64,000 nucleotides of DNA from Betaproteobacteria bacterium (GTDB taxonomy: Bacteria > Pseudomonadota > Gammaproteobacteria > Burkholderiales > Rhodocyclaceae). Below are positions 22,400 through 63,134 of the stretch, one piece after another (position 1 is the first letter of the stretch; every line of letters starts with the position of its first letter). The notes beneath the pieces are model-generated. The model did not search any database and had not been told where the DNA came from. It saw nothing but the letters and a program-made list of their open reading frames with translations. The translations under genes were made by a program, and so were the position numbers. The stretch spans positions 62,001-126,000 of the forward strand of contig JAHRYW010000004.1 of the NCBI GenBank assembly GCA_020621865.1, given 5' to 3'.

Positions 22400-23052
22400 T
22401 CGCCTGCCAGCCGGTATTCGACTGGCACCGCAATCCGGAATCGTCTCCCCTGCAATTCCTGCGGGATTGAGGCCACATTGGCCGCCCGCTCCATCATTTC
22501 CAAAGCAGCCAGGTCCAGCGCCTCGTCACCGCTCGATTGCTGCAAGCGAATTGCCGGACGATGGGCAACAAGCTGCACAGAAACCGATACGACAACCACA
22601 CCCTCAGCACTGCGACCGCCGACGCCAGCAGGATAGCGTTTGTACCGACGAGCCTCACGCGCCAGGTTCAGGCGATACTCGCGCTCACCATCTCCCGCCG
22701 GCAAAAACACATCCGGAGCATCCTCCCCCCCGGCCTGCCGGCCGGCATTTTGGCCATGCTTGGCAAATGCTACGGTCGGCCCGGAAAAAGAGGCAATTTT
22801 TGAATAATCCGCCGCCTTGGCCGGCGCAATACTCTTTGTCTTTCCGGAGCCAGCCAAGGATTTTTGGCTTTGCTTTTCAATCGCATTCGCAACGGACCCC
22901 GCGTCTCGAACGGCTCCCGCCCCAGGTAGGACCGCAACAATCCCCCGACGCCCTCCCTGATCACTCTCTTTGCTGCCCGGCAACTCAGGAGCCCCCGAGA
23001 CCAGGATGGCAAGATGTAGCACAAGCGAGACAAACAGGGCACGAACAATCAT
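22396..23052 (-). CDS. TonB-family protein (energy transducer C-terminal domain)
   Basis: The protein has an N-terminal TM anchor (IVRALFVSLVLHLAILVSG), a linker without a strong Pro repeat, and a C-terminal TonB-like fold (RYPAGVGGRSAEGVVVVSVSV, DEALDLAALEMMERA). It could transmit proton-motive force to an outer-membrane receptor, but no exbBD or receptor gene is nearby. ATGs at 23064 and 23052 are possible, and 23052 fits the membrane anchor better. A terminator ends almost at the start codon. One copy of the dispersed AATGCTACGGTC motif lies in the linker (SGPTVAF). Confidence 0.8.
   Translation of the reverse strand: MIVRALFVSLVLHLAILVSGAPELPGSKESDQGGRRGIVAVLPGAGAVRDAGSVANAIEKQSQKSLAGSGKTKSIAPAKAADYSKIASFSGPTVAFAKHGQNAGRQAGGEDAPDVFLPAGDGEREYRLNLAREARRYKRYPAGVGGRSAEGVVVVSVSVQLVAHRPAIRLQQSSGDEALDLAALEMMERAANVASIPQELQGRRFRIAVPVEYRLAGD
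22766..22804 (+). repeat. Dispersed uptake-signal-like motif, copy 1
   Basis: The exact core AATGCTACGGTC is followed by GGC and then A/T tracts (AAAAAG and AATTTTT). It lies inside the TonB-family gene, on the strand opposite to its coding strand. Confidence 0.75.
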
Positions 23053-23067
23053 GCGGCATATCATCTC

Positions 23068-23106
23068 AAAAAAAACCCCTGCCGGTATTTCCGCACAGGG
23101 GTTGAT
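23068..23106 (-). terminator. Rho-independent terminator after the DUF3149 gene
   Basis: On the minus strand AACCCCTG, a 12-base loop region and CAGGGGTT are followed by a T run. It lies directly before the TonB-family start codon. Confidence 0.75.
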
Positions 23107-23147
23107 GCCATCAGCGCCGTTCTATGAACGGCGGGACAAAGCAGCGA

Positions 23148-23288
23148 TTACTTGCCCAGCTTGCGAGTTTCCTCGTCGATTTTGTTCGAGTACATCTTGC
23201 CCATGACGGCGCCGATCACCAGAACACCAACGATCACGACCAGGCTCATCAAACCGATATCGCTAGTCAACAACAGATTCCATGCCAT
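23148..23288 (-). CDS. Small DUF3149-type membrane protein
   Basis: The 46-residue product starts MAWNLLLTSDIGLMSL and has one TM helix (LMSLVVIVGVLVIGAVMGKMY) followed by a charged tail. This matches the short DUF3149 family found in betaproteobacteria; its function is unknown. The ATG at 23288 has GGGAGGTGG upstream. It follows ccoH in the same direction, so it may be cotranscribed with ccoGH. Confidence 0.8.
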   Translation of the reverse strand: MAWNLLLTSDIGLMSLVVIVGVLVIGAVMGKMYSNKIDEETRKLGK

Positions 23289-23317
23289 AAGCCACCTCCC
23301 AATAACAAATAAAGAAA

Positions 23318-23839
23318 CTACTTCCCCGCCTTTGCCGCCAACTTCAGCGGCTCCTCCGAGTCGGCCTGCCACTCTCCCTGAAGCCGCCATTGCCCGGCGG
23401 GATCCTCAATGGAAACAAGCCAACGCCCCGAGACTTCTTCTGCCAGCTTGCCGCTGTAGAAGCCCTGCCCTTCAGAAACCATCTGAACGGATTGATCCTG
23501 CCCGGCCCTCGTGGGATGGGACAACTTGAGTGTCAATGCCTGCGCCAGTTTGACGTCTCCCTCGGAACGAAGAAGAAGACGGACGTTGGCACCGGCACGC
23601 ATCACGTCTGCATGCAACCCCAAAATACCGGCCTGAGAATCACGATGCAGTTGCTGGTTTACGGCCAGCCCTTGCTTGTAATAGTCGTCCGAGACCAGGC
23701 CATCGTTGCTGATCACGGCCAGCCAGACTGTAATCACACCGGCCACAATCACGACTGCGGGGCCGGCCATCAAAAGCCAAGGCCAGCGCTCCTTGTACCA
23801 GGGTCGATTATTACTACGCATAGTCATGGCATGGCTCAT
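23318..23839 (-). CDS. ccoH: CcoH/FixH, cbb3 oxidase assembly protein
   Basis: CcoH is a membrane protein needed for stable cbb3 oxidase assembly. The 173 residues show one TM (WPWLLMAGPAVVIVAGVITVWLAV), the FixH motif SDDYYKQGLAVNQ and a periplasmic domain ending in a WRLQGEWQ-type strand. It starts one base after the ccoG stop, so the two are coupled. Confidence 0.92.
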   Translation of the reverse strand: MSHAMTMRSNNRPWYKERWPWLLMAGPAVVIVAGVITVWLAVISNDGLVSDDYYKQGLAVNQQLHRDSQAGILGLHADVMRAGANVRLLLRSEGDVKLAQALTLKLSHPTRAGQDQSVQMVSEGQGFYSGKLAEEVSGRWLVSIEDPAGQWRLQGEWQADSEEPLKLAAKAGK

Positions 23840-23840
23840 A

Positions 23841-25259
23841 TCAGGGCATCAGGAAAGAGGCTTTTTCATGAACCGCGATCTTGTCGTGATTCTCGGCCTT
23901 GACGTCAAAATAAATGGTGTTGGCACCCGTTTTACCCGACTCGGGCGGAACGCGTACAACAACGGTAATTTCATGGTTTTCGGCGCTACCCACCTCAACG
24001 CCGTTCTCACCAACCAGCTCAATCCCTTCCATACCCTGGACGGAAAGTAGGTAACGCTTCGGTTCTTCGGTGGTATTCATGATTTTGAGGTTGTAAACAT
24101 TCTCAATACGACCATCGTCTGCCTCACGGGCCAGGATCGAACGGTCGCGGATCACATCCACCTTGAGCGGGACGCGGGTTGCCAGCGACCAAACAGACGC
24201 ACCGATAATGGCGACAAGGATGACGGTATAGAGAATGATGCGCGGGCGCAGAATGTGCGCCATCACTTCCTTCGGACCAAAGTGTTGGGCCAGGGCATTC
24301 TCTGTCGTATAGCGAATCAGACCACGGGGCAAACCCACCTTGTCCATGACCGGATCGCAGGCATCAATACAGGCGCCGCAACCGATGCACTCATACTGCT
24401 GCCCCTTGCGAATATCTATCCCCGTCGGGCAAACAGCGACGCACAGGCCGCAATCAACGCAATCGCCCAGAGCGGACGCCTTGGCATCCATATTCTTCTT
24501 GCGCGCGCCACGCGGCTCGCCGCGCTCCGGATCGTAAGTAATGACCAGCGTATCAGGATCGAACATCACCCCCTGAAAGCGAGCATAAGGACACATGTAC
24601 TTGCAGACTTGTTCACGCAGGAAGCCGGCCTGCATATAACAAAAACCGCCGTAGAAAAATGTCCAGAACAACTCCCAGCCAGAAAGGTTGAACGGCAAGG
24701 CAGCCAGCAGCTCATCGACCGGGGTGAAATAAGCAACCAGCGTAAAGCCCGTCCACAGGGAGATCAACAGCCAGATTGCATGCTTGATCGCCTTGAGGCG
24801 GAGCTTTCTGGGCGTCATCGGCCCCTTGTCGAGCTTCATGCGCGCAGCACGATCACCCTCGATCCGGTTCTCCACCCACATGAAGATTTCCGTATATACC
24901 GTCTGCGGGCAGGCGTAACCACAGAACAGACGCCCGGCGACAGCGGTGAACAGGAACAAGGCATATGCCGAAATAATCAGCAACAGCGCGAGATAAAAGA
25001 CATCCTGTGGCCATAGCACCAGGCCAAACAGATAGAACTTGCGCTCGACCAGATGCAGCAGCACGGCCTGCCGTCCATTCCATTCCAGCCAGGGCGCACC
25101 GTAAAACAGAATCTGGGTAAAAAACACCAGGATCCAGCGCCAGTTATTCCACCATCCCTTGACGTCGCGGATATAGACCTTCTTGTGTTTCTCGTAAAAA
25201 GAAACTGGGGCTACCGCAGCTGCAGCCTTGGGAGAATTTGTGTTGTCGTTTGGGTCCAT
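23841..25259 (-). CDS. ccoG: CcoG/RdxA, ferredoxin-like cbb3 oxidase accessory protein
   Basis: This is a polytopic protein of 472 residues with two [4Fe-4S] motifs (CVDCGLCVAVCPTG and CIGCGACIDACDP). It also has the NapH-like CGYACPQTVYTEIFMW stretch and a C-terminal Ig-like domain. CcoG takes part in copper reduction and maturation of the oxidase. It heads the ccoGH unit, separated from ccoP by a terminator and an FNR-like site. Confidence 0.95.
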   Translation of the reverse strand: MDPNDNTNSPKAAAAVAPVSFYEKHKKVYIRDVKGWWNNWRWILVFFTQILFYGAPWLEWNGRQAVLLHLVERKFYLFGLVLWPQDVFYLALLLIISAYALFLFTAVAGRLFCGYACPQTVYTEIFMWVENRIEGDRAARMKLDKGPMTPRKLRLKAIKHAIWLLISLWTGFTLVAYFTPVDELLAALPFNLSGWELFWTFFYGGFCYMQAGFLREQVCKYMCPYARFQGVMFDPDTLVITYDPERGEPRGARKKNMDAKASALGDCVDCGLCVAVCPTGIDIRKGQQYECIGCGACIDACDPVMDKVGLPRGLIRYTTENALAQHFGPKEVMAHILRPRIILYTVILVAIIGASVWSLATRVPLKVDVIRDRSILAREADDGRIENVYNLKIMNTTEEPKRYLLSVQGMEGIELVGENGVEVGSAENHEITVVVRVPPESGKTGANTIYFDVKAENHDKIAVHEKASFLMP

Positions 25260-25324
25260 GAAAATCTTATCCGTATCAAAATCACGCTAAATGCATATTG
25301 TTGAGCAGGCAGCCTAACGCAATT

Positions 25325-25338
25325 TTGATACCGATCAG
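25325..25338 (-). promoter_or_regulatory. FNR-like site upstream of ccoGH
   Basis: TTGAT-ACCG-ATCAG matches TTGAT-N4-ATCAA except for the last base. A CAATAT -10-like box on the minus strand at 25295-25300 places the site near -43, suitable for activation under low oxygen. Confidence 0.65.
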
Positions 25339-25353
25339 CGATTGCTTATATAA

Positions 25354-25383: not shown

Positions 25384-25392
25384 TTGGAACAA

Positions 25393-26292: not shown

Positions 26293-26307
26293 TTGCTTTC
26301 CTTTATA

Positions 26308-26484: not shown

Positions 26485-26489
26485 GGCTA

Positions 26490-28866: not shown

Positions 28867-29054
28867 ACTTTCTCTGATTTATTGGAGTCGCCATTAACCA
28901 CCGGGGGCTTTGGCTGATCATCATCCATCAGGATTCGGAATCCCGGCCCTTCCAGATCGTCAAATTGCCCACTGCGGACCGACCACCAGAAGGCGACAGC
29001 GATACCAAAAACCAAAATGACCGAAACGGGAATCAGCAGGTAGACGCTTTCCAT
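28863..29054 (-). CDS. ccoS: CcoS, cbb3 oxidase maturation protein
   Basis: This 63-residue protein has one TM (LLIPVSVILVFGIAVAFWWSV) and the CcoS signature WWSVRSGQFDDLEGP. It is required for cofactor insertion into the oxidase. The ATG at 29054 overlaps the ccoI stop by one base (TGATG), showing coupling. Confidence 0.92.
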   Translation of the reverse strand: MESVYLLIPVSVILVFGIAVAFWWSVRSGQFDDLEGPGFRILMDDDQPKPPVVNGDSNKSEKV

Positions 29055-31492
29055 CAATCCTTCTCCTGGCGCTGGATACGCAGCGAATTAAGGACGACCA
29101 GCAAGGAACTGGCCGACATGCCGATGCCGGCAATCCACGGTGTCACATAACCGGCAATTGCCAACGGTAGCGCCACGAAATTGTACGCGAAGGACCACCA
29201 GAGATTCTGACGAATTACCTGTAGCGTTCTGCGAGCCCGCCGCAAACCGTGGCGCAGATGGTTCAAGTTTTCGGAAAGAAGGACGAAGTCGGACTGTGTG
29301 CGCGCCAATTGCGCTCCGCCGCCCATGGCCACCGAGACCTGAGCCTGGGCCAGCACCGGCGCATCGTTGACGCCGTCGCCGACCATCGCAACCACGCCAC
29401 CAGCCGCTTGCAGGGCCGTGACACAGTCATGCTTGCCCTGCGGCGTCACCCCCGCCCGTACATCGTCGATGCCAAGCGCCGCCGCCACTCGACGGGCTAC
29501 ATTTTCGGCATCGCCGGAAAGCAGCACGACATGCTTGCCGGCCGCGCGCAGTTCAGCAACCAAGGCCGCCGACTCCGGGCGGATCTCGTCGCCGATCCTG
29601 AACAGCGCCAGGCAATGCTGCGCGTCGCCGAGAACGACGACCGTATCGCCGCTCTCCAGCCAGCTTGCCGCCTCATTCGGCAACGTCGCCGACCCCAAAC
29701 CGAGCGCATAGCCGGGGCGCCCGATCCGGCAGCGCCGGCCAGCGACGACCGCTTCAATGCCCTGCCCGGGTTCGCTCAAGACGTCGGATATTTCCGGCAG
29801 TTGCTCACCAGCGGCGCGCCGCAAGGCATGGGCCACCGGATGCTCCGAGGAGTGTTCCAGCGCCGCGGCCATGGCCAGGCAATCATCCCGGCTCAGATTC
29901 GCCGTCGGCAGGACGTCAATGAGATGCATGCGTCCGGTGGTCAGCGTTCCGGTTTTATCAAAGACGAAATGTGTCGCCCTGGCCAGCGTTTCGATGGCAT
30001 GCCCGCGCGTCACCAGCAGACCGTCCTTGGCCAGCGCACCGGCCGATACCGTCAGGGCGATCGGGGTGGCCAGAGAGAGCGCGCATGGGCAGGTGACCAC
30101 CAGTACCGAAACAGTGATCCACAACACTTTGGACGGATCGACAAAATACCAGCCAACGGCAACCAGCACGGCCACCGCAAGCAGTGCCGCGACAAAGTAG
30201 CTGGCGATTCGATCGGCCAGTTCGACAATCTTCGGCTTTTCTGCCGCGGCACGCTCCATCAGCTGGATGATGGCCGACAAGCGCGTGCCTTCGCCCACCT
30301 GGTCGACCTGCACGACGAGCGGGCTTTCGGCATTGATCGAACCGCCCGTCACCGCATCTCCGATTTTTTTCGAAACCGGCTTGCTCTCGCCGGTCAGCAG
30401 CGATTCATCGGCGCAACTGACGCCTTCGATAATCCGGCCGTCGGCCGGCACGATATCGCCAGCGCGAACCAGCACATAGTCCCCCAAATGCAGGTCAGCC
30501 ACGACACACTGCTCAATGCTACGGTCGGCCGGAAATTTCGGCATTTTTTGAGCAAAGGCCGGCAGCAACTTGGCCAACGCCTCGGTCACGCTGAGCGCCT
30601 TCTGGCGTGCAGTCATTTCCAGATAGCGGCCGCCGAGCAGGAAGAAGATGAACATTGTCACCGAGTCGAAATACACCTCACCCGCTTGCGCCAATGTTGC
30701 CCAGCAACTGGCAACGAAGGCCGCCCCAACGCCCAGCGCCACCGGAACATCCATGCCGACCCGGCGCAACTTGATATCACGCCAGGCATTGCGAAAAAAC
30801 GGGGCCGACGAATAGAAAATGACCGGCAAGGTCAGCAACAGGCTAGCCCAGCGCATCAGGCTCTCGATATCGGGCGCCATGTCGCCATCGGCGATGTAGA
30901 CCGGGTAGGCGTACATCATCACCTGCATCATGCCGAAACCGGCCACCCACAGACGCCACAGCGCATCGCGGCGTTCCTTGCGGGAAATTTCCTCGTTCTT
31001 GGCGGCATCGTAGGGATAGGCCCGGTAGCCGATCGCCGCGATCGCGCCAAGGATGTCCGACAATTTGACCCGAGTATCGTCCCAGCGGACCCGCGCCCTG
31101 CGGGTCGCGTAATTGATATCGACTGCCGTGACCCCGGACAGGCGGCCAACATGCTGCTCGTTCAACCAGATGCACGCAGCGCAGGTAATCCCTTCGAGGA
31201 GAAGCGAGGCCTCCCGTTCGTTTTCGCCCAATTCGCGAACGAAACTTTTCTGGAATTCGGCATGATCGAACAAAGCCAGTTGATCGAGAATCGCTGGCCG
31301 CGCCTCGCGCGGTGACTCGGGCAGCGCGTCGCGGCTGCGATAGTAATCATCCAAGCCATTATCGACGATAGACTGCGCCACCGCCTGGCAGCCAAAGCAA
31401 CACATCGCGCGTGGCTCGCCGGCCACCGTCACCGACAGATCGACATCATCGGGAACAGGCAAACCGCAGTGATAGCAGGAATCGTGGGACAT
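29054..31492 (-). CDS. ccoI: CcoI, copper-exporting P-type ATPase for cbb3 assembly
   Basis: CcoI supplies copper to the oxidase. The 812 residues start with a Cys-rich region (CYHCGLPVP and CCFGCQ), then a heavy-metal domain (GITCAACIWL) and TM helices. The metal channel motif is CPC (VTCPCALSLATPIAL), with phosphorylation motif DKTGTLT and hinge GDGVNDAPV. The ATG at 31492 fits the family N-terminus; the longer frame does not. One copy of the dispersed motif is in the region before the actuator domain, encoding PADRSI. Confidence 0.93.
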   Translation of the reverse strand: MSHDSCYHCGLPVPDDVDLSVTVAGEPRAMCCFGCQAVAQSIVDNGLDDYYRSRDALPESPREARPAILDQLALFDHAEFQKSFVRELGENEREASLLLEGITCAACIWLNEQHVGRLSGVTAVDINYATRRARVRWDDTRVKLSDILGAIAAIGYRAYPYDAAKNEEISRKERRDALWRLWVAGFGMMQVMMYAYPVYIADGDMAPDIESLMRWASLLLTLPVIFYSSAPFFRNAWRDIKLRRVGMDVPVALGVGAAFVASCWATLAQAGEVYFDSVTMFIFFLLGGRYLEMTARQKALSVTEALAKLLPAFAQKMPKFPADRSIEQCVVADLHLGDYVLVRAGDIVPADGRIIEGVSCADESLLTGESKPVSKKIGDAVTGGSINAESPLVVQVDQVGEGTRLSAIIQLMERAAAEKPKIVELADRIASYFVAALLAVAVLVAVGWYFVDPSKVLWITVSVLVVTCPCALSLATPIALTVSAGALAKDGLLVTRGHAIETLARATHFVFDKTGTLTTGRMHLIDVLPTANLSRDDCLAMAAALEHSSEHPVAHALRRAAGEQLPEISDVLSEPGQGIEAVVAGRRCRIGRPGYALGLGSATLPNEAASWLESGDTVVVLGDAQHCLALFRIGDEIRPESAALVAELRAAGKHVVLLSGDAENVARRVAAALGIDDVRAGVTPQGKHDCVTALQAAGGVVAMVGDGVNDAPVLAQAQVSVAMGGGAQLARTQSDFVLLSENLNHLRHGLRRARRTLQVIRQNLWWSFAYNFVALPLAIAGYVTPWIAGIGMSASSLLVVLNSLRIQRQEKD
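30515..30549 (+). repeat. Dispersed uptake-signal-like motif, copy 2
   Basis: The exact core AATGCTACGGTC is followed by GGCC and A/T tracts (AAATTT and ATTTTTT). It lies within ccoI, antisense to the gene. Confidence 0.75.
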
Positions 31493-41266: not shown

Positions 41267-41611
41267 TCACTGCAGATTACAAGTCGCCGTGGTGTAGTTG
41301 CAATGAACCGTCTTTAAGCCACGGTTGGAACTGAATGTTGCATCAACATTTTGAGCCTCAACCAGAGTCGCCGGCAGCGAGCCAGTGGTGCATGATGTAA
41401 GCGCCGAAAGCGCCAGAAAACCAATATCGTTGTTGGCAACGGCAACAGCAGCACCGCGAGCGACTGCTGCAGCCTCGTCCAAACAAGCTGCGTCTGCCGA
41501 ATGTTGGATGAACACCCGGTATTGCGGTAGCGCGATGGAAGCCAAAATACCGATGATCGCGACGACAATCATCAGTTCGATCAGGGTGAAACCGTTCTGT
41601 ATCGACTTCAT
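41267..41611 (-). CDS. Type IV pilin-like protein (second, divergent copy)
   Basis: The prepilin start [20 protein letters not shown] has the PilD cleavage site G/FTLIE and the hydrophobic helix. The mature body is short (114 residues in all) with Cys residues near the C-terminus (HCNYTTATC) for a disulfide loop. It is less typical than the neighbouring pilin and has Val/Phe in place of the usual YRDY. It lies after a terminator, so it needs its own promoter or readthrough. It may be a minor or variant pilin. Confidence 0.88.
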
Positions 41612-41675
41612 GGAATATCCCAAGGAGAGACCAAATTGCGATCCATTACCAGGCCACATGAAAGCCCAGCCCCCA

Positions 41676-41705
41676 ATAAAAAGCCGGAGCTGGCGCCCCG
41701 GCTTC
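41676..41705 (-). terminator. Terminator between the two pilin genes
   Basis: On the minus strand AAGCCGG, a 10-base loop and CCGGCTT are followed by TTTTTATT. It should end the major pilin transcript. Confidence 0.8.
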
Positions 41706-41745
41706 TCACATCAGGGGTCACCCCCTATGATCGATAATTATCCGA

Positions 41746-42102
41746 TTACGGCAGAGCGCAGCGACCGGTACCGGCATTACATGCCGGGTCAAGCTTAACG
41801 GCAGCGTTGCCACGGGTTTGGGTCGTAAAGGTAACGGCAGTGTTAGCACCGTAATCAGCCACGGCCAGCGCAGCGGAGATAGCAGTACATGCACTACCAA
41901 CAAAGGCAGCCGGGTCACGATTGTTAGCCATTTCAGAAACCGCAGTAGACATGTATGACTTTGCTTCAGCCAGGCATGCGCCATTAGCGGAACGCTGAGT
42001 GTAGTCACGATACTGCGGCAGAGCGATAGCAGCCAGAATGCCGATGATGGCGACGACGATCATCAGTTCGATCAGGGTGAAACCTTTTTGCACGTTCTTC
42101 AT
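41746..42102 (-). CDS. Major type IV pilin (PilA/PilE type)
   Basis: This 118-residue prepilin starts [20 protein letters not shown]. It has the G/FTLIE processing site with Glu5, the N-terminal helix ending [12 protein letters not shown], and a C-terminal disulfide loop (ACNAGTGRC). The ribosome site AAAGGAG is strong. A sigma-54-like promoter lies about 50 bases upstream, as expected for a main pilin. Type IV pili would also serve DNA uptake. Confidence 0.93.
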
Positions 42103-42148
42103 TTGAATCTCCTTTTGAAGTAAGGCGGGAAAGCCGCTGGGTTACCTT

Positions 42149-42382: not shown

Positions 42383-43966
42383 TCAACAATCGATCTGTTT
42401 GGGCTTCAGAAAAACCTCGGCGTAGCGCCGATAAACCTCGCACTTGACAAAGATCGCGTGCAGGTCGGGGTCGATGTGGCCGTTCCGGCTGAATTTTTCG
42501 AGCACGCCCAGCGCTTGGGAGAGGGCCATGCCCTCCTTGTACGGCCGGTCCTTGGCGGTCAGGGCTTCGAAAATGTCGGCGATGCCCATGATCCGCGCCT
42601 GCCAGCTCATCTGTTCGCGCTTCAGGCCGCGCGGGTAGCCTTTGCCGTCCATGCGCTCGTGGTGGCCGCCGGCGTATTCGGGGACGTTTTTCAGGTGCCG
42701 CGGCCAGGGGAGCTGTTCCAGCATCCGGATGGTCGCGACGATGTGGTGGTTGATGATGTCGCGCTCGGCGGCCGTTAGCGTGCCGAAGGGGATGGTGAGG
42801 TTTTCGAGTTCGTCGGCACTGAGGAAAGGCTGCTCTACGCCTTCCGGGTTGCGCCAGCGGTAGATTTCGGCGATCCGCCGGACCTGTGCAATATCCTCGG
42901 CGGCCATTTTCTCGCTGCCAATATTGGCCTGGCGCAGAATGCTACGGTCAGCGGCAATTTTTTGGCAAAAATCGAAAAATTTCGCTTCGGCTTCGACCCG
43001 GTCGGCGCCTTCGGCGATGCTGCGCCATTTGCGCACTTCGGCATCGCGCCGGATGACTTCAAAACGGGTGTCGATCAGGTCGATGCGGTCGTAGATGGTT
43101 TGCAGCTTGGTGGCCTTGTCGACGACATGCACCGGCGTCGTGACCTTGCCGCAGTCGTGCAGCAGCGCGGCGATGCGCAGTTCGTAGCGGTCCTTGTCGG
43201 TCAGCTGAAAATCGGCAAGCGGTCCTTCGCTGGCGGCGTCGGCAGCTTCGGCCAGCATCATGGTCAGTTCCGGCACGCGCTGGCAGTGGCCGCCGGTGTA
43301 GGGCGACTTCTCGTCGATGGCGAGGTTGATCAGCTTGATGAAGGATTCGAACAGCGCTTCAAGCTGCTGCACCAGCTGCCGGTTGCTCAAGGCGACGGCG
43401 GCCTGCGAGGCGAGCGATTCAGCCAGGCGCTGGTCGGCTGGCGAAAATTCGACGACTTGGCCGCTCTCGGCGATGGCGTTGATCAGCTGCAAAACGCCGA
43501 TGACTTCGCCCTCGTGGTCCTTCATCGGCACGGTCAGGAAGGATTGCGAGCGGTAGCCGGTGCGGGCGTCGAACTGGCGGGTACCGGAAAAGTCGAAGCC
43601 CTGTGCCGCGTAGGCGTCGGCAATGTTGATTGTCTGGCCGGTCATGGCTGCGGCAACGGCGACCATGCTGTCGTTGGCCGAGCCATCTTCACGATAGAGC
43701 GGCAGGTTGGAAAACTTGCCCGAGGTCGGCTGATTGCTGCTGCCGCCGAAAGCAATGCCCAGCGAGTCGGTGCGGACGATTTCAAAATGCAGCTGGCGCC
43801 TGTCTTCCGAAACCAGGTAGAGGGTGCCGCCATCGGCGCGGGTGATCTGCTTGGCGGCAAGGATGATCTTTTCGAGCAGCCGTTCGAGATTACGCTCGTC
43901 GGACAGCGATGCCCCGATGTCGTTGAGCTGATCGAGACGTTGGAAAAGGTCGTCCGGGGTTTCCAT
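42383..43966 (-). CDS. GAF-HD-GYP c-di-GMP phosphodiesterase
   Basis: The N-terminal GAF domain (about 20-190, LEKIILAAKQITRADGGTLY) is followed by an HD-GYP domain. Its metal-binding motifs are HCQRVPELTM, LLHDCGKVTTP, HH and HHERMDGKGYPRGL, with the late GIADIFEALTAKDRPYK stretch. It should hydrolyse c-di-GMP. The 527-residue length includes an insert between HDCGK and the GYP loop. That insert contains a copy of the dispersed motif, encoding AADRSI. Confidence 0.92.
   Translation of the reverse strand: METPDDLFQRLDQLNDIGASLSDERNLERLLEKIILAAKQITRADGGTLYLVSEDRRQLHFEIVRTDSLGIAFGGSSNQPTSGKFSNLPLYREDGSANDSMVAVAAAMTGQTINIADAYAAQGFDFSGTRQFDARTGYRSQSFLTVPMKDHEGEVIGVLQLINAIAESGQVVEFSPADQRLAESLASQAAVALSNRQLVQQLEALFESFIKLINLAIDEKSPYTGGHCQRVPELTMMLAEAADAASEGPLADFQLTDKDRYELRIAALLHDCGKVTTPVHVVDKATKLQTIYDRIDLIDTRFEVIRRDAEVRKWRSIAEGADRVEAEAKFFDFCQKIAADRSILRQANIGSEKMAAEDIAQVRRIAEIYRWRNPEGVEQPFLSADELENLTIPFGTLTAAERDIINHHIVATIRMLEQLPWPRHLKNVPEYAGGHHERMDGKGYPRGLKREQMSWQARIMGIADIFEALTAKDRPYKEGMALSQALGVLEKFSRNGHIDPDLHAIFVKCEVYRRYAEVFLKPKQIDC
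42938..42972 (+). repeat. Dispersed uptake-signal-like motif, copy 3
   Basis: The exact core AATGCTACGGTC is followed by AGCGGC and A/T tracts (AATTTTTT and AAAAAT). It lies within the HD-GYP gene, antisense to it. Confidence 0.75.
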
Positions 43967-45505: not shown

Positions 45506-46330
45506 TCACTTCAATCGTGCCAGCAAACGCTGCCACCAGCCTCGCCGAGAGGCAAAGTCACCCCGCACCTTGACCAGGATGACCGAAATATTGTCCCGAC
45601 CGCCGTTCTCGTTGGCCATTTGTACCAGATGATCGGCCGCCAGCTGCAGATTGCCGCCCAGCGCCTGCAAGGCAAGGCCGATTTCGTGATCGTCGACCAT
45701 GTCGTTAAGGCCGTCCGAACAGAGCAGGACGATATCTCCCGGCGCCACGGCGAAATCGTGGATTTCGACATCGACCACCGGCTCCACGCCGAGCGCCCGG
45801 GTCACCAGATTCCGGTTCCCCGAGAAGCGGGCTTCTTCCGGGGTAATCATGCCATTATCAAGCTGTTCCTGTAAGAGGGAATGGTCCCGGGTCAACTGCT
45901 CCAATTGGTCGCCGCGCAAGCGGTACAGCCGGGAATCGCCGACGTGCCCGACACTCATCCGGTTGTCGTAAAACCAGGCGACGACCAGCGTCGTACCCAT
46001 TCCGGCATAGGCCGGCTCGCTCCGCGAGGCGTTGAAAATGGAGAAATTGGCCGCCTCGACCTCATTGACGATATGCTGCTCAACCTCGCCCGGGTCGAAA
46101 ACACCTCGGCCATCGCGCGCCACGGCGGTCGCGATGACCCGGCTCAGGTCGGCAGCCAGTCGGGTAGTCGCCATGCCGCTGGCCACCTCACCGGCGTTGT
46201 AGCCCCCCATGCCGTCGGCCAGAATGGCCACGCCCAGAGCGGCATCGGCAAAGACGGCATCTTCGTTGTGCGAACGGACGGCCCCCGGATCGGTGCACAA
46301 GGCCATTTCGAGGTACGGGGCGAGACTCAT
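45506..46330 (-). CDS. PP2C-family Ser/Thr protein phosphatase (Stp1 type)
   Basis: This 274-residue phosphatase has the PP2C metal motifs RSHNEDAVF, ILADGMGGYNAGEVAS, LLCSDGLND and DNISVILVKV. Stp1-like enzymes dephosphorylate targets of Hanks-type kinases. It overlaps the stop of the cyclodeaminase-like gene by four bases (ATGA) and is followed by the FHA gene, so the three are probably one operon. Confidence 0.93.
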   Translation of the reverse strand: MSLAPYLEMALCTDPGAVRSHNEDAVFADAALGVAILADGMGGYNAGEVASGMATTRLAADLSRVIATAVARDGRGVFDPGEVEQHIVNEVEAANFSIFNASRSEPAYAGMGTTLVVAWFYDNRMSVGHVGDSRLYRLRGDQLEQLTRDHSLLQEQLDNGMITPEEARFSGNRNLVTRALGVEPVVDVEIHDFAVAPGDIVLLCSDGLNDMVDDHEIGLALQALGGNLQLAADHLVQMANENGGRDNISVILVKVRGDFASRRGWWQRLLARLK

Positions 46331-47283
46331 TGGAGGGGCAACTCGCGGCCCAGGCCGCGCTCCTCCGCCAACTGGACCACCCGCAAGGCGACCGCCAGAT
46401 CCTGGATCGCCATGCCCTGCGACTCGAACAGCGTGATCTGCCCGGCGTCGGTTCGGCCGCCATGGCGGCCGACGATCACCTCGCCCAACTCGACCAGTTG
46501 CCGCGCGTGCAGACGCCCCTTTTCGAGCAGCGGCAGCAGATCGCCGGCCTCGGCCAGCGCGGTCGGCACGGAATCGACGCTAATCAGGTCGCAACGGCGC
46601 ACCGCCGCCTCCGACAGCTCCTGACGGATCAGCGCATTGGACCCCGCCGCGTTGATATGGACGCCGGGTTCAAGCCAGTCGGCGTCGAACAGCGGTTGCG
46701 CCGCCGTCGTCACCGTACCGACGATATCGCTCCCGCGCACCGTTTCCTCGGCGCTCGCCGCCGGAACGACAGCCACCCCGGTCATCTCGCTCAAACGCTG
46801 GCAGAAAGCCTGCAACTTGTCGGCCTTGCGGCTGAAGACCTTGACCTGCTCCAGCGGCAAGGCGGCGCAGATGGCACGGACATGCCCTTCGGCCTGCCAG
46901 CCGGCGCCGAACACGCCGGCCACCGTTGCATCCGGCCGGGCCAGCCACTTGGCGGCAACGCCGCTGGCCGCGCCGGTGCGGATCATGCCGAGATAGTCGG
47001 CTTCAAGAACCGCGCGCAACTGCCCAGAGGCCGCGTCGAACAGATGAACCAGGAAGCGGTTGCCGGAGCGATTGCTGGTGTAGGCCTTGTAGCCGAGCAC
47101 GCCCTGGGCCGGCAGCCCGCCCTGCAGGATGTGGAGCATCGTTTGCGGCAGGCGGGTGCGGGCGCGCGGCGTATCCTGCGCCTGACCGAGCGCCAGGTCG
47201 CGATGCGCCGATTCGACGGCCTCCATGGCCAATGCTACGGTCAGCAGGTTTTTTACGTCATTTTCCGAGAGAAACAAGGCCAT
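46327..47283 (-). CDS. Ornithine cyclodeaminase / mu-crystallin family protein
   Basis: This 318-residue NAD(P)-dependent enzyme family member has a Rossmann motif (VAGVFGAGWQAEGHVRAI) and upstream substrate-site motifs (GYKAYTSN and RTGAASGVAAKWLA). Possible substrates include ornithine, alanine or cyclic imino acids. A copy of the dispersed motif near the N-terminus encodes LLTVALAMEAVE. It is the first gene of the PP2C-FHA group. Confidence 0.85.
   Translation of the reverse strand: MALFLSENDVKNLLTVALAMEAVESAHRDLALGQAQDTPRARTRLPQTMLHILQGGLPAQGVLGYKAYTSNRSGNRFLVHLFDAASGQLRAVLEADYLGMIRTGAASGVAAKWLARPDATVAGVFGAGWQAEGHVRAICAALPLEQVKVFSRKADKLQAFCQRLSEMTGVAVVPAASAEETVRGSDIVGTVTTAAQPLFDADWLEPGVHINAAGSNALIRQELSEAAVRRCDLISVDSVPTALAEAGDLLPLLEKGRLHARQLVELGEVIVGRHGGRTDAGQITLFESQGMAIQDLAVALRVVQLAEERGLGRELPLQ
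47231..47264 (+). repeat. Dispersed uptake-signal-like motif, copy 4
   Basis: The exact core AATGCTACGGTC is followed by AGCAGG and tracts TTTTTT and ATTTT. It lies within the cyclodeaminase-like gene, antisense to it. Confidence 0.75.
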
Positions 47284-50369: not shown

Positions 50370-51728
50370 TTACGCGCTCAAATCGGCATCGGCGACCGCC
50401 TTGCGAAGCAGGCCGGAGAGCATGATCGCGGCAAGCACCAGGCTGGCCACGGCCGCCAACCAGAAGCCGGCGACGCCCATGGGAGGTTGTGCGCGATAGC
50501 AAAGCCAGGCGCCGCCAAGCAGGCCGACGCCCCAGAAGCAGGCGGTCTGGACCAGCATCGGCAGGAAAGTCACCCGGTAGGCGCGCAGGCAATGACCGGC
50601 GACCGTCTGCAGGGCATCAAAAAACTGATAGAGGGCGATGTAGCCGATCAGTCCACGAGCAACCACGCGCACAGCTGGATCGTCGGTATAGGCGGCAATC
50701 AGCGGCGCGGCGCCGAGCCAGAGCAGCAAGCCCATCAGCGACGACAGGCCGGCCGACAACACCAGCCCGGCCCGAATAGTGGCCTTGGCCCGCCGCCGGT
50801 CGCGGGCGCCAATCGCCTGGCCGAGCGCCACCATGGTGGCAATGGCCAGCGACAGCGGCAGCATGTAGACCAGCGCCGACAGGTTGGCGACAACGCGATG
50901 CCCGGCGACAACGGGCGCGCCGAGTGAGGCGATGAACAGCGCGATCAAGGTGAAGGAAGTGATTTCGACCAGGTTGGAGAAGCCCATCGGCAGGCCGATG
51001 CGCAGCAGTTCGCGCCAGGCCGGCCAGCGTGGGCGCTGCCAGTCGGCAAACGGGCGGTACGGCGCACGCAGCGGCCCCCAGGCCAGATAGGCGGCACCGC
51101 TCAGGCACGCCACCCAGCCGATCAGCACGTTCGACAGCGCACAACCGGCGACCCCCAGGGGCTCGCCGAGCCAGCCCTCGAGCGCCAGGCCGCGGGCCAG
51201 CACGGCATGGACGCCGAGGCTGGCGAGGCCGATCGCCATCAGCACCCGTGGCTTGCCCAGCGCGTTGCAGAAAGCGTAGAAAGTCCGGTAAACGAGCGCC
51301 GCCGGCAGGCTCCAGGCGAGTATCGCCAGATACTGGCGGACCTTGGCGTCGACTGCCGCATCCATGTCGGCCAAGCCGAGCAGCGCATCCGGGTGAATCA
51401 GGAACAGGACGCCGGGTACCGAGAGCAGCATGGCCAGCCAGAAACCCTGGTGCAGGATGCCGGCCACTTCGCCGTCGCGCCGGGCGCCATGCAGATGCGC
51501 GACCACCGGCCCGACCGCCTGCAGTACGCCGGCCAGCGCGAAAACCAGCGCGACGTGAATACCGCCGCCGATGGCCACGGCCGCCAGGTCGAGCGCACTG
51601 ACATGGCCGAGCACGGCGGTGTCGATGACCATCATGCCGATCGACGCCAACTGGGCGATCAGGATGGGAAAGGCATGGGCAATCAGCCCGCGGGCTGCGG
51701 TCAGGAACATGGCGGCGGATTGTCGCAT
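50370..51728 (-). CDS. MATE-family multidrug efflux transporter
   Basis: This 452-residue protein with 12 TM helices in two repeats shows MATE features (FPILIAQLASIGMMVIDTAVLGHVSALDLAAVAIG, and GLPMGFSNLVEITSF at the start of the second half). It exports cationic compounds using an ion gradient. A start at the second Met (MFLTAARG) is also possible. One of the intergenic motif copies lies just upstream. Confidence 0.92.
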   Translation of the reverse strand: MRQSAAMFLTAARGLIAHAFPILIAQLASIGMMVIDTAVLGHVSALDLAAVAIGGGIHVALVFALAGVLQAVGPVVAHLHGARRDGEVAGILHQGFWLAMLLSVPGVLFLIHPDALLGLADMDAAVDAKVRQYLAILAWSLPAALVYRTFYAFCNALGKPRVLMAIGLASLGVHAVLARGLALEGWLGEPLGVAGCALSNVLIGWVACLSGAAYLAWGPLRAPYRPFADWQRPRWPAWRELLRIGLPMGFSNLVEITSFTLIALFIASLGAPVVAGHRVVANLSALVYMLPLSLAIATMVALGQAIGARDRRRAKATIRAGLVLSAGLSSLMGLLLWLGAAPLIAAYTDDPAVRVVARGLIGYIALYQFFDALQTVAGHCLRAYRVTFLPMLVQTACFWGVGLLGGAWLCYRAQPPMGVAGFWLAAVASLVLAAIMLSGLLRKAVADADLSA

Positions 51729-51770: not shown

Positions 51771-51804
51771 AATGCTACGGTCGGCGGCAAAAAACGGCCA
51801 AAAT
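51771..51804 (+). repeat. Dispersed uptake-signal-like motif, copy 5 (intergenic, full-length)
   Basis: The exact core AATGCTACGGTC is followed by GGCGGC, AAAAAA, CGGCC and AAAAT. It lies between the MATE and FAH-family genes and is almost the same over 34 bases as the copy at 63101. Confidence 0.85.
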
Positions 51805-51827
51805 CGGAATTTGTTGCCCGCTCGCAA

Positions 51828-52529
51828 TCAGACGATCCTCGCCCGCAAACTGCCGACCCCGTCGACACCGCCTTCCAGCAAGTCGCCCGGGCGCACCGGC
51901 CCAACGCCGGCCGGCGTGCCGGTGTAGATCAGGTCGCCGGCTTCCAGCCTGACCATCGTCGACAGGTTGGCGATGATGTCGGCCACTTTCCACATCATGT
52001 CGGCCAGGTCGCCATCCTGACGCAGTTCGCCATTAACCTTCAGCCAGATGCGACCGCCGGCCGGGTGGCCGCTTGCCGCCACCGGGTTGATCGCACCGGC
52101 CACCGCCGACTGGTCGAAGCCCTTGCCCATGTCCCAGGGATGGCCCTTTTCCTTGGCCTTCGCCTGGATGTCGCGGCGGGTCAGGTCGAGGCCGACGGCG
52201 TAGCCGAAAATCAGGCCGGGCGCCGCAGCGACTGTCAGATTTTCGCCACCGGCACCGAGCGCGACGACCATCTCGACCTCGTGATGCAGGTTGTTGGTCA
52301 GCGGCGGATAGTTGACCGCCACCTCGCCCTCGCCACCAACCACGGCATCGCCCGGCTTGGTGAAGAAAAACGGCGGCTCGCGCCCCTCGGCCTGGGCGGT
52401 CGCCCCCATCTCACGGGCGTGATCGGCATAGTTGCGGCCGACGCAAAAGACGCGGCGAACCGGAAAACGCAATTCGCTGCCAAGGACCGGCAGGCTGGAA
52501 ACGGGATGCGGGGCGAAGACGAAATCCAT
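51828..52529 (-). CDS. Fumarylacetoacetate hydrolase family protein
   Basis: This 233-residue FAH-fold enzyme starts MDFVFAPHPVSSLPVLG and has the motif VFCVGRNYADHAREMG, the metal ligands in HHEVEMVVALG and GLDLTRRD, and the C-terminal TGTPAGVGPV. Relatives hydrolyse fumarylpyruvate or acylpyruvates. The substrate is not known here, because no gentisate-pathway genes are nearby. The ATG at 52529 is preferred over an upstream frame. Confidence 0.9.
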   Translation of the reverse strand: MDFVFAPHPVSSLPVLGSELRFPVRRVFCVGRNYADHAREMGATAQAEGREPPFFFTKPGDAVVGGEGEVAVNYPPLTNNLHHEVEMVVALGAGGENLTVAAAPGLIFGYAVGLDLTRRDIQAKAKEKGHPWDMGKGFDQSAVAGAINPVAASGHPAGGRIWLKVNGELRQDGDLADMMWKVADIIANLSTMVRLEAGDLIYTGTPAGVGPVRPGDLLEGGVDGVGSLRARIV

Positions 52530-56382: not shown

Positions 56383-57204
56383 TCAGGACAGCTTGCGGAA
56401 CTCTTCTTCCGCCTGGTCCATCTCCGAATTCATTTTTGCCGAATTTTCCGGGCTTACCGTAGCATTCTCGACGGCAGGAGCCGGCCGCGACACGAAGCGA
56501 GAGGCCAGGATACCCAGCTCGTAGAGCAGGCACATCGGTATAGCCAAAGCCAGTTGCGAGACGACATCCGGCGGTGTCACCACCGCGGCAATGACGAAGG
56601 CGCCGACGATAAAATAGGAACGCCATTCCTTCAATTTTTCGACAGTCACCACGCCAAGCTTGACCAGCACGACCAGTGCCACCGGGACCTCGAAGGCGAT
56701 ACCGAAGGCGAGGAACATGGTCATCACGAAGGACAGGTAGGCTTCGATATCCGGCGCCGGCGTGATGCTCTTCGGGGCGAAGCTGGCGATGAAGCTGAAC
56801 ACCTGCCCGAAAACGAAGAAATAGCAGAACGACATGCCGGCCACGAAGAGCAGCGTGCTGGACACGATCAGCGGGATGCCCAGGCGCTTTTCATGAGCAT
56901 AGAGGCCCGGAGCGACGAATCCCCAAGCCTGGAAAAGTATGAACGGCAGCGCCAGCACGAAGGCGACCATGGCCGTGACCTTGAGCGGCACCATAAAGGG
57001 CGTGATGACGCCGATGGCAACCATCTTGGTGCCTTCGGGCAGCGCCTTGGTCAGCGGCGCGGCGAGGATGTCGTAGATTTCGCCCGGCCCCGGATAGATG
57101 CACAGGATGCCAAGCAGCACGGCGATGGCGATCAGGCTGCGCAACAGGCGGTCGCGCAGCTCCACCAGATGCGAAATAAAGGAGTCTTCCTGGTTTTCGC
57201 TCAT
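56383..57204 (-). CDS. tatC: TatC, twin-arginine translocase core subunit
   Basis: TatC binds the twin-arginine signal. The 273 residues have six TM helices and the N-terminus [17 protein letters not shown]. The late [17 protein letters not shown] is typical. The C-terminal tail (about 25 residues longer than the shortest homologues) carries a one-base variant of the dispersed motif, encoding ENATVSPEN. It overlaps tatB by four bases. Confidence 0.97.
56432..56466 (-). repeat. Dispersed uptake-signal-like motif, copy 6 (one mismatch)
   Basis: On the minus strand AATGCTACGGTA (last base changed) is followed by AGCCCGG, AAAATT, CGGC and AAAAAT. It is the only copy on the minus strand, inside the tail of tatC and in the sense direction. 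Confidence 0.65.
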
Positions 57205-57861: not shown

Positions 57862-57871
57862 GATGTGTCTC

Positions 57872-60435: not shown

Positions 60436-60469
60436 GGGAGTCTAAGAGAATAAATTCGGCAGAAGCGAA

Positions 60470-61114
60470 TCAGGGGTGCCATTCAACGAAATTCTTCAGC
60501 AGTTGCAGACCGTCGCGAGCACTCTTCTCGGGGTGGAATTGAACCGCGAAGATATTATCCCGCCCCACCGCACAGGTAAAGGGCACACCGTACTCGCAAG
60601 TGCCCGTCACCAGCGCCGGATCGGCCGGTTCGACGAAATAGCTGTGCACGAAATAGAAGCGCGAACCGTCGGCGATGCCCTGCCACAGCGCATGTGGCTG
60701 CTGGCGCACCTCGTTCCAGCCCATGTGCGGGACTTTCAGGCGCTCGCCGGTCGGCAGCATCATTTTTTCGTCGGGAAAGTGCTTGACGTTGCCGGCGAAG
60801 ACGCCGAGCGCCGGCACATCGCCTTCATCGCTATGCTCGAACAGCATCTGTTCGCCAACGCAGATACCGAGGAAAGGTTTGTCCTTGGCGGCGGCCAACA
60901 CGGCAGCGCGCAGGCCACGGGCGTCGAGTTCGGCCATGCAGTCCGGCATCGCGCCCTGACCGGGAAAGACGACGCGTTCAGCTGCCGCAACGACGGCCGG
61001 GTCAGCGGTGACAACCACCGTCTTGCCGCCGGCGACATGCTCCAGCGCCTTGGACACCGAGCGCAGGTTGCCCATGCCGTAATCGATGACGGCGATTGTG
61101 CCAGCAGCGCTCAC
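60470..61114 (-). CDS. hisH: HisH, glutamine amidotransferase subunit of IGP synthase
   Basis: This 214-residue class I amidotransferase has the nucleophile Cys in [12 protein letters not shown] and the His-Glu of FHPEKS. The GTG at 61114, overlapping the hisB stop, gives the N-terminus [16 protein letters not shown] that matches the family. The long open frame upstream is the shadow of hisB. Confidence 0.96.
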
Positions 61115-61698
61115 AGCATGCCTTTCGTCGACGGCATGGCACCAGCCATGCGCGGATCGGGCGTCACCGCCATGCGTAGGGCGCGACCAAAGGCCTTGAA
61201 GATGGTCTCGGCCTGATGGTGGGCATTCTTGCCGCGCAGATTGTCGATGTGCAGGGTCATGCCGGCGTGGTTGACCAGGCCGTGGAAGAATTCGGACACC
61301 AGATCGACGTCGAAGGTGCCAATCATCGCCCGGGTGAACTCGACGTTCAGTTCCAGCCCCGGCCGCCCGGACAGGTCGATGACCACCCGCGACAGGGCTT
61401 CGTCGAGCGGCACGTAGCTGTGGCCGTAGCGGGTCAGGCCCTTCTTGTCGCCCCAGGCCTTGGCCAGCGCCTGGCCGAAGGTGATGCCGATGTCCTCGAC
61501 GGTGTGGTGCGCATCGATGTGCAGGTCGCCCTTGGCATCGACGTCGAGGTCGATCAGGCCATGACGGGCGATCTGGTCGAGCATGTGGTCGAGGAAGGGG
61601 ACGCCGGTGGCAAACTTGCCCTGGCCGGTGCCATCGAGATTGAGACGCACGGTGATCTGCGTCTCCAGCGTGTTGCGAGTAATTTCGGCTTGCCGCAT
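61111..61698 (-). CDS. hisB: HisB, imidazoleglycerol-phosphate dehydratase
   Basis: This 195-residue dehydratase (no phosphatase domain) has the two metal-binding repeats [17 protein letters not shown] plus [11 protein letters not shown], and [14 protein letters not shown] plus [14 protein letters not shown]. The ATG at 61698 is chosen. It is divergent from hisC with 78 bases between, which must contain promoters for both. Confidence 0.97.
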
Positions 61699-61776
61699 GG
61701 TTGAAGGCTGCAAAAGGCTTTTGATGGAGGGCCATGATACCATTTCGGCCTACTTTTACGCCTTTCGTGAATCCCC

Positions 61777-62862
61777 ATGAGTCGATTCTGGAGCCAGGTC
61801 GCCCGCGACCTCACCCCCTACGTGCCGGGCGAGCAGCCCAAGATCGCCAAGCTGATCAAGCTCAATACCAACGAGAACCCCTACCCGCCCTCGCCCAAGG
61901 TGCTGGCGGCGATCCAGGCGGAACTCGGCGACGATGCCGCGCGCCTGCGTCTCTACCCGGACCCCAACGCCGATCTGCTCAAGGCCGCCGTGGCCAAGCG
62001 CCACGGCGTGACGCCGCAGCAAGTCTTCGTCGGCAATGGCTCGGATGAGGTGCTCGGCCACGCCTTCATGGCGCTGCTCAAGCACGAGGCGCCGATCCTG
62101 TTCCCGGACATCACCTACAGCTTCTACCCGGTCTATTGCGGACTGTACGGCGTCGATTTCATCCGCGTGCCGCTGGCCGACGATTTCACGATCAACCCGG
62201 ACGATTATTGCGGCCAGACGTGGAACGGCGAGCAGTGCGGCGGCATCATCTTCCCCAACCCGAACGCGCCAACCGGCTGTCTGCTGGCCCTCGACGCCAT
62301 CGAGCGCATCCTGCAGGGCAATCCGGATTCGGTCGTCGTCGTCGATGAAGCCTATGTAGATTTCGGCGGCGCCACGGCAATCCCGTTGGTCGACCGTTAC
62401 GACAACCTGCTGGTCGTCCATACGTTGTCAAAATCCCGCTCGCTGGCCGGCCTGCGCGTCGGCTTCGCGGTCGGCCACCCGGCGCTGATCGAGGCGCTTG
62501 AGCGGGTCAAGAACAGTTTCAACTCCTATCCGCTGGATCGCCTGGCGATCGCCGGCGCTGTCGCCGCGATCGAAGATGAGGCGCACTTCGTCGAGTGTTG
62601 CAGCAAGGTCATCACCAGCCGCGAGCAACTCTCGACTGATCTTGCCGGCCTAGGCTTCGAAGTCCTGCCCTCGGCTGCCAATTTCATCTTCGGCCGCCAC
62701 CCGCGCCACGATGCCGGGGAACTGGCCAAGGCGCTGCGTGATCGAAGCATTATCGTCCGCCACTTCAAGCAACCGCGCATTGATCAGTTCCTGCGCATTA
62801 CCGTCGGTACCGACGGCGAATGCCAGGCCCTGGTCGACGCATTGCGCGAAATCACCGCCTAA
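61777..62862 (+). CDS. hisC: HisC, histidinol-phosphate aminotransferase
   Basis: This 361-residue PLP fold type I enzyme has the substrate loop [15 protein letters not shown], the PLP Lys in [16 protein letters not shown] and the Asp/Tyr region [12 protein letters not shown]. It is divergently oriented from hisB. Confidence 0.97.
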
Positions 62863-62867
62863 ACAGC

Positions 62868-63074
62868 ATGGAAACCATCTGGAAACGCCCCGACGGCAGC
62901 ATCGTCGCCTGCACCGAGAAGATCAAGGTGCTGCGCGAAAACCTCGAAGAACTGCGCCAGATGGCGCAGGACGCCTTCGAGGATGCGCTGCTGATGGAGT
63001 GCGAGGAAAGCCAGATCCGTGCGGTGTTCCAGGACATGATCGCCAAGCTGGAAAATCCGTACAACAAGCTCTAG
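62868..63074 (+). CDS. Small conserved-looking protein of unknown function
   Basis: This 68-residue acidic helical protein starts METIWKRPDGSIVACTEKIKV and is rich in Glu and Leu, with a possible coiled coil (LRENLEELRQMAQDAFEDALL). It follows hisC by 5 bases, so it is probably cotranslated. I do not recognise the family. There is no signal peptide or TM segment. Confidence 0.7.
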   Translation: METIWKRPDGSIVACTEKIKVLRENLEELRQMAQDAFEDALLMECEESQIRAVFQDMIAKLENPYNKL

Positions 63075-63100
63075 CGCAGCTCTTGGGCCTGCCTGCGGCA

Positions 63101-63134
63101 AATGCTACGGTCAGCGGCAAAAAATGGCCAAAAT
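63101..63134 (+). repeat. Dispersed uptake-signal-like motif, copy 7 (intergenic, full-length)
   Basis: The exact core AATGCTACGGTC is followed by AGCGGC, AAAAAA, TGGCC and AAAAT. It lies between two convergent genes and its last base touches the chrA stop. It differs from the copy at 51771 at two positions. Confidence 0.85.

Follow-up and report, generated by a model that had tools for sequence, protein, structure and literature searches.

Uptake sequences are known from two bacterial families, the Pasteurellaceae, with the uptake signal sequence (USS), and the Neisseriaceae, with the DNA uptake sequence (DUS) (PMC7811141). According to PMC1626085, both show no orientation bias, a somewhat regular spacing and a preference for noncoding DNA with many copies inside genes; perfect copies outnumber those with one mismatch, and closely spaced pairs in opposite orientation occur. 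The same account has the USS arising by mutation and not by insertion, places two A/T-rich segments 3' of its core, distinguishes a Hin type (AAGTGCGGT) and an Apl type (ACAAGCGGT), and describes some Pasteurellaceae that lost competence recently and retained the USS. In Haemophilus, GCGG is described as crucial for uptake, and rigid, bent A/T tracts appear to help (PMC7811141). PMC12616744 presents ComN/PpdA as the predicted USS receptor in Pasteurellaceae and reports modelling, and PMC3630211 distinguishes eight dialects of the DUS that have a core of three bases in common. Here we describe a dispersed motif found in a 64,000-nucleotide stretch (the window) of the genome of a betaproteobacterium of the family Rhodocyclaceae (contig JAHRYW010000004.1, positions 62,001 to 126,000). 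From sequence comparisons, we propose that it is a DNA uptake sequence of Dechloromonas/Azonexus, a reading to which we assign a probability of roughly 0.87.

A pattern search placed the core of the motif, the 12-mer AATGCTACGGTC, exactly at 22766, 30515, 42938, 47231, 51771 and 63101 of the window, all on the plus strand, and a copy with a single change at 56455-56466 on the minus strand. These are the positions given by a first-pass annotation of the window, which judged six copies to be beyond chance; an order-3 Markov model agrees, with an expectation of 0.0058 in 64 kb and a probability of about 5e-17 for six or more. Allowing up to two mismatches yielded 12 matches in the window vs a mean of 3.79 in shuffled sequence. 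A second one-mismatch match, at 13772 (minus strand), lacks A/T tracts and looks like chance. A weight matrix (position weight matrix, PWM) added an eighth, degenerate site with its core at 8457-8468 (minus strand); no motif is present there in G300, the sole aligned relative. The copies are as follows:

22766..22806, plus strand: uptake-sequence-like copy with exact 12-mer core and A/T tracts, intergenic by our own gene finder; PWM score 44.6.
30515..30555, plus strand: copy antisense within an E1-E2 (metal) ATPase gene (29054-31381, minus strand); PWM score 34.1.
42938..42978, plus strand: copy antisense within a GAF/HD-domain gene (42383-43966, minus strand), with the orthologous position compared across further species of the genus; PWM score 49.4.
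47231..47271, plus strand: copy in antisense orientation where an ornithine cyclodeaminase/mu-crystallin gene begins (46327-47283, minus strand); PWM score 29.1.
51771..51811, plus strand: copy between a MatE gene (50370-51710, minus strand) and an FAA hydrolase gene (51828-52529, minus strand); PWM score 56.4.
56426..56466, minus strand: copy within tatC (56383-57204, minus strand) whose core has a single change (AATGCTACGGTA); PWM score 45.5.
63101..63141, plus strand: copy where two convergent genes meet (62868-63074, plus strand; chromate transporter, 63134-63652, minus strand); PWM score 57.9.
8428..8468, minus strand: weak degenerate copy with core 8457-8468 = TTTGATACGGTC; PWM score 20.6.

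The anatomy of the motif was read from a logo of 46 exact sites, drawn from C3:1-400000 and the window and covering about 16% of the genome. The motif extends over about 41 bp, and not the 34 bp first annotated: the 12-mer is followed by A/T tracts at +18..23, +29..33 and +36..40, counted from its first A. A and T interchange freely at the tract positions, and G/C (GGCC) lies between the tracts. The base after the core is a purine, A or G, in 46/46 sites, followed by G in 61% and C in 59%; upstream of the core there is little conservation beyond position -1. The centres of the first two tracts are about 10.5 bp apart. The earlier description of R-G-C followed by two A/T tracts is thus accurate as to the strict R and the 10.5-bp distance, whereas G and C are majority bases and the tracts number three. 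The A/T phasing is conserved in the logo and in the weight matrices.

The source assembly consists of 17 contigs (2.90 Mb, 74.65% completeness), and the window is part of contig C9. Its 2,901,865 bases contain 310 exact copies of AATGCTACGGTC, 140 and 170 by strand, and none of the reversed pattern, matching the hundreds of copies anticipated by the first-pass annotation. Since copies with up to one mismatch total 403, perfect copies outnumber one-mismatch copies by 310 to 93. With the weight matrix, 400 kb yielded 60 sites, or 150 per Mb, and one Markov-3 sequence scanned at the same threshold yielded none.

We assign the source organism to Dechloromonas/Azonexus because its ornithine carbamoyltransferase is closest to those of Dechloromonas species, the nearest named relatives being Dechloromonas hankyongensis (97%), Dechloromonas sp. 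H13 (95%) and D. agitata (90%). This fits the order Rhodocyclales named in the first-pass annotation. Across a sample of the order the exact 12-mer is at chance level, with any copy in 30 of 300 genomes and more than two in the source genome alone. A 31-bp form is present in 135 copies in the source genome and in a single copy among the 297 non-genus genomes of that sample. Matches with up to one mismatch range from 1 to 550 per genome in the 76 genomes of the genus, and their variants hinted at dialects.

Dialects were sought by k-mer enrichment and weight matrices in 80-100 kb from each of 12 relatives and were detected in 10. None was found in G218 and G300, treated alike, where the matrices drifted to codon periodicity, which we took as no motif (100 kb each). 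The dialect is CCACGGTCAACCGGAAAAA in G312, TGCTACGGTCAACCGGAAAA with CCACGGTCAACC in G347 and G348, GCTGCGGTCAAC in G369, TGCTGCGGTCGACC in G340 and G306, and CACGGTCGACC in G301; TGCGGTCGAC is found in G349, in G334 (often as TGTTGCGGTC) and weakly in G335. Common to the dialects is the nucleus RCGGTCR within about 12-13 bp, the 5' half being dialect-specific.

A general form of this nucleus, TGCYRCGGTCRRC, is present in 88-566 copies in 38 of the 76 genus genomes and in 4-55 copies in the other 38; its reversed control gave 2-17 copies among the genomes inspected. It is an imperfect yardstick, with only 44 copies in G343 despite 453 tract-bearing sites, and it is because of these sites that we count G343, whose single aligned site reads ATTTGACGGTCAACC, as the 39th bearer. 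At least 39 of the 76 genomes are motif-enriched. Of the 249 genomes sampled in the family, 241 belong to other genera and contain 0-29 copies of TGCYRCGGTCRRC each; some of these genera (g175, g195) exceed the reversed control. The tracts are strong in some dialects and weak in several others; the reversed control of the tract-bearing pattern totals 5 in all 76 genomes. We read the 17-64 tract-bearing sites of G345, G307, G303, G218 and G304 as low-level or relic. The genome of G218 contains seven full-length copies. Two identical full-length copies in this motif-poor species lie 239 bp apart (G218:C1:640237 and 640476), perhaps as a tandem duplication.

Orthologous positions indicate how sites come about. 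The GAF/HD-domain gene containing the 42938 site has orthologues across the genus; most alignments of this position are gapless, and some show small indels. At this position, other species carry the motif in their own dialect, namely AATGCTACGGTCGAT in G366, AATGCTGCGGTCGAC in G336 and AATCCCACGGTCAACCGG in G312 and G317, each followed by similar A/T tracts. Motif-poor species mostly lack tracts there, and CGGTC is retained in some; in more distant bearers (G301, G331) the full motif is missing. On a tree of this gene from 48 species (L237, which was too short, and L279 were dropped, and G343 was labelled motif-poor), the motif label requires 8 changes vs a shuffled mean of 14.3, and 0/500 shuffles were as low. 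The presence of the motif over this tree is clustered but patchy.

Comparison of 90 sites of the source genome with 164 loci (1.73 Mb) gave 18 spanned sites and 93 site-species pairs, of which 46 are gapless, 47 have gaps of fewer than 20 bases and none has a gap of 20 or more. In a few gapped pairs, among them those of G308, G300, G326 and G335, 10-14 bases of the motif have no match. Retention was counted in 92 of the 93 pairs, with the L154 alignments left out. Of the pairs from motif-bearing species, 60 of 65 retain CGGTC, vs 36% for control 5-mers of the same alignments; of those from motif-poor species, 15 of 27 retain it, vs 39% for control 5-mers. Leaving aside the much-sampled site 42938, CGGTC is retained in 29/33 and 4/11. 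Judged from these alignments, motif sites arise by point change in place, without insertion, one intergenic site excepted. Transposon-like insertion, which would count against the interpretation of the first-pass annotation, appears in none of the 93 alignments; the one intergenic exception looks insertion-like.

The motif resembles the Pasteurellaceae USS in a core ending in GCGGT(C), here RCGGTC, in A/T-rich segments that lie 3' to the core with about one turn between them, in the excess of perfect over one-mismatch copies (here seen in the source genome), in the lack of orientation bias, in the noncoding preference with many genic copies, in point-mutational origin and in the existence of subclade types. 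The regular spacing described for USS and DUS is seen here only outside three gaps set aside post hoc, and inverted pairs only in other species. Unlike the USS, the motif resides in a genome of about 60% G+C and in another class. Its first tract begins about 8 bp after GGT vs about 2 in the USS, GGCC lies between its tracts, there is a third tract, and the tracts are weak in some dialects. The 5' half of the core differs as well: the USS core is ANNNGCGGT and that of the source genome is AATGCTACGGTC, and GCGGTC does occur in the dialects of G306, G340, G349 and G334, where the base four places ahead of it is T instead of A. Exact cores number 107 per Mb in the source genome vs 337-817 in Pasteurellaceae (table in PMC1626085), and matrix sites reach 250-812 per Mb in six sampled relatives. 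Several dialects and repeated changes of presence and absence within one genus also set the motif apart. The extended USS layout claimed by the first-pass annotation is seen in the A/T tracts and the CGGTC ending, but not in the shifted first tract, the third tract or the different core.

The Neisseriaceae are classically also Betaproteobacteria. Their DUS resembles the motif in having dialects with a short invariant nucleus, and a minor pilin with a ComP_DUS domain is present here too. By eye, however, the DUS sequence (GCCGTCTGAA) is unrelated to the motif, the DUS is described without flanking A/T motifs, and the ComP_DUS pilin is here not specific to motif bearers. Among the open-access papers listed, we found no earlier report of uptake sequences in Rhodocyclales or Rhodocyclaceae, including Dechloromonas, Azonexus, Accumulibacter and Thauera, and a search aimed at Betaproteobacteria in general returned nothing. 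Tentatively, the motif may represent a third uptake-sequence system, independent of those of Pasteurellaceae and Neisseriaceae, which converged on, or inherited the reader of, the Haemophilus RCGGTC nucleus with phased A/T tracts.

The anatomy and the evolution of the motif are, as far as genomes can tell, those of an uptake sequence, and the interpretation offered by the first-pass annotation gains support from copy number, A/T phasing, restriction to relatives in the samples searched and the lack of insertion in 93 alignments. Dialects, change in place at orthologous positions, the surplus of perfect copies, mixed strands and the preference for non-coding DNA are likewise typical of uptake sequences, and outside three long gaps, two of them defence or mobile islands, spacing is regular in a split made post hoc. 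We propose that a surface receptor belonging to the type IV competence pilus, with a minor pilin as the likeliest candidate, would read the nucleus, and that the stiff, bent A/T tracts may help the DNA fold into the secretin. Motif-bearing DNA would be taken up preferentially, and its recombination would spread the motif in the population. Such an uptake drive could keep consensus and dialect in step with the receptor and create sites in place, and species that lost uptake would be left with decaying relics.

Several observations weigh against this interpretation. Spacing over the full 400 kb analysed, long gaps included, is clumped (coefficient of variation, CV, 1.41). Nor are the tracts general: among the 38 nucleus-rich genomes, tract-bearing sites number 100-524 in 16 and no more than 28 in 11. 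Since BLAST alignments can fail to extend over a 40-bp gap, we also sought broken flanking alignments. Two relatives show an insertion-like pattern (query gap 80-82, subject gap 5-7) at a single intergenic site, which lies between convergent genes at about 11352 of C3; in 31 further site-locus pairs, left undecided, the alignment stops near the motif on one or both sides. In the source genome comEC is interrupted, with residues 1-237 and 234-663 encoded about 2.3 kb apart, and the source strain may therefore be unable to transform, while comEC is intact in the motif-poor G218. Outside the genus, the ComP_DUS domain was found in 55 of 60 genomes, all from genera at motif background, and similar dialects (G312 vs G347/G348) accompany dissimilar pilins. 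Our search of the open-access literature, judged by titles and the openings of abstracts, found no work on uptake or transformation in Dechloromonas.

The state of comEC bears on a special case of the uptake-sequence interpretation, not exclusive of it, in which the motif is a fossil and the source lineage no longer transforms. This would agree with the interrupted gene and with the low tract-bearing counts (17-30) of G218, G303, G304 and G307, which look like relics. We nevertheless regard it as rather unlikely, given a consensus that is still strong (310 perfect vs 93 one-mismatch copies) and motif-bearing relatives (G366, G341) with uninterrupted comEC; the gene is uninterrupted in the motif-bearing G335 as well. 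Another bearer, Dechloromonas sp. H13 with 237 copies, matches G327, in which the comEC frame runs for 820 aa without stops. Among the genus genomes, 71 of 76 encode comEC, including 51/51 near-complete ones irrespective of motif, and its presence therefore does not track the motif and was rejected as a correlate. The expectation that over-representation would be limited to competent relatives stands, in the samples searched, as far as relatives are concerned; the presence of comEC does not separate genomes with the motif from those without. Elsewhere, inserts of about 32-34 kb interrupt comEC in the motif-rich G333 and the motif-poor G353; the gene is split over two frames in G320 (motif-poor) and split between contigs in G311 and G356 (both motif-bearing); only a piece was found in G313 (motif-poor), and D. 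hankyongensis (G308, motif-poor) encodes only residues 253-475 within the 8-kb stretch read.

The comEC gene is a recurrent insertion target in G333, G353, G308 and the source genome. Immediately inside their left end, the elements of G333 and G353 carry a large serine recombinase; they interrupt comEC at the same codons (HLMSISGLHV region), and the remnant in G308 begins at the same place. The insert of the source genome is different, about 2.3 kb long and located at residue 237. Interruption of com genes by mobile elements has also been reported elsewhere.

An improbable alternative is that the motif binds a chromosome-organising or recombination protein (chi-like, KOPS-like (FtsK-orienting polar sequence), matS-like or acting in nucleoid occlusion) whose recognition changes between species. 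A genome-wide, long, non-palindromic motif with phased A/T tracts would suit such a protein, as would regular spacing outside the gaps and the two islands without motif. Spacing was analysed over C3:1-400000, with three long gaps set aside after being seen. The overall clumping is due to these gaps, which have lower G+C (0.52-0.56 vs 0.61); outside them, in a post hoc split, the CV is 0.71 vs 0.94 at random (P 0.004), with a minimum distance of 758 bp. One gap contains the ATP synthase operon, and the other two contain genes for type I restriction, a SIR2-domain protein, a recombinase and transposases. These two are defence or mobile islands; 8 of their 71 predicted genes were compared with Pfam, as were dnaA and one ATP synthase gene located at the gap margins or in the third gap. 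The motif-free, lower-G+C stretches exceeding 50 kb are G000:C3:150243-204051 and 302591-354744, and dnaA lies near the start of one. Speaking against a chromosome-protein site, we observed no strand polarity around dnaA (14 plus and 17 minus on one side, 11 plus and 18 minus on the other) or over the single-contig chromosome of G301, where the best half-split agreement of 51 tract-bearing sites (0.67) was matched by 195 of 1000 shuffles. Strand-polar signals such as chi and KOPS are not supported because the motif strands are mixed. The motif is also absent or sparse in about half of the species of the genus, and an excess of perfect over one-mismatch copies would be anomalous for an intracellular binding site, by an argument made in PMC1626085.

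Much less probable still is a regulatory element or intrinsic terminator. It could be suggested by the placement of 22 of the 46 exact sites in intergenic DNA, which makes up 8-12% of the sequence by our own gene finder (27 of 60 matrix sites are not wholly within a gene), and by a few overlapping inverted pairs with a 16-bp offset in other species, G301 and G307, among the matches listed. However, 24 of the 46 sites are inside predicted genes, 9 in sense and 15 in antisense orientation, and the genes containing copies in the window are mutually unrelated. A small mobile repeat spread by insertion, of the type of a miniature inverted-repeat transposable element (MITE) or a repetitive extragenic palindrome (REP), might be inferred from hundreds of near-identical copies and from the one intergenic site, about 75-80 bp missing in two relatives, but this reading and that of a transposon are rejected because in-gene sites occupy orthologous positions in different species, where the dialect has been rewritten without displacement, none of the 93 spanning alignments contains a gap of 20 or more, and the tracts vary freely between A and T.

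For the receptor, our best guess is a minor pilin. A minor-pilin operon adjoining rpsT-argD in the source genome encodes a ComP_DUS-domain pilin and a GspH-domain (FimT-like) pilin, the latter of the class of ComN/PpdA (PMC12616744). A GspH-like pilin (weak NCBIfam hits) is also present in the motif-poor D. hankyongensis. ComP_DUS (PF16732) was detected in 70 of the 76 genus genomes irrespective of motif and in 0/14 control genomes; the 25 PDB sequences listed are general pilins and a PilE, none of them named ComP. Because ComP_DUS also occurs in genera free of the motif and similar dialects go with dissimilar pilins, we dropped it as a diagnostic receptor and name none. The gene order and pilin class of the operon vary among species of the genus, mostly next to rpsT-argD, as if it were exchanged as a cassette. 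The type IV pilin genes that the first-pass annotation recognised in the window are the following:

41267-41710 and 41746-42141, minus strand: two tandem type IV pilin-like open frames, recognised by a match to the N-terminal pilin motif only; listed for context only.

Three further observations were made along the way. The own-type motif was seen in viral contigs as well (6 stretches, 4 contigs; host flanks and proviruses pooled), the second dialect in none. G301 has a second abundant repeat, TCCGGGGCTTCC, unrelated to the motif (21 in 100 kb vs 0.02 expected). G312 contains long poly-G runs, GGGGGGGGGGGG being counted 16 times in 100 kb (overlapping counts) vs about 0 expected.

If the uptake-sequence interpretation is correct, this would be a third uptake-sequence lineage, in environmental bacteria, present in several dialects in no fewer than 39 of the 76 genomes of a single genus, the rest lacking or nearly lacking the motif. 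The genus would then provide a natural series in which the motif was gained, lost or changed in dialect, and would open to testing the origin of uptake specificity, the joint change of motif and receptor, and the role of dialects in species isolation. Close species with and without the motif provide material for a receptor search, the Pasteurellaceae receptor being only predicted (PMC12616744). If a minor pilin of the FimT/ComN class indeed reads the motif, one pilin fold would underlie a general code by which beta- and gammaproteobacteria recognise self-DNA. For the organisms themselves, the motif suggests natural transformation in members of Dechloromonas/Azonexus and, if so, a route to their genetics.

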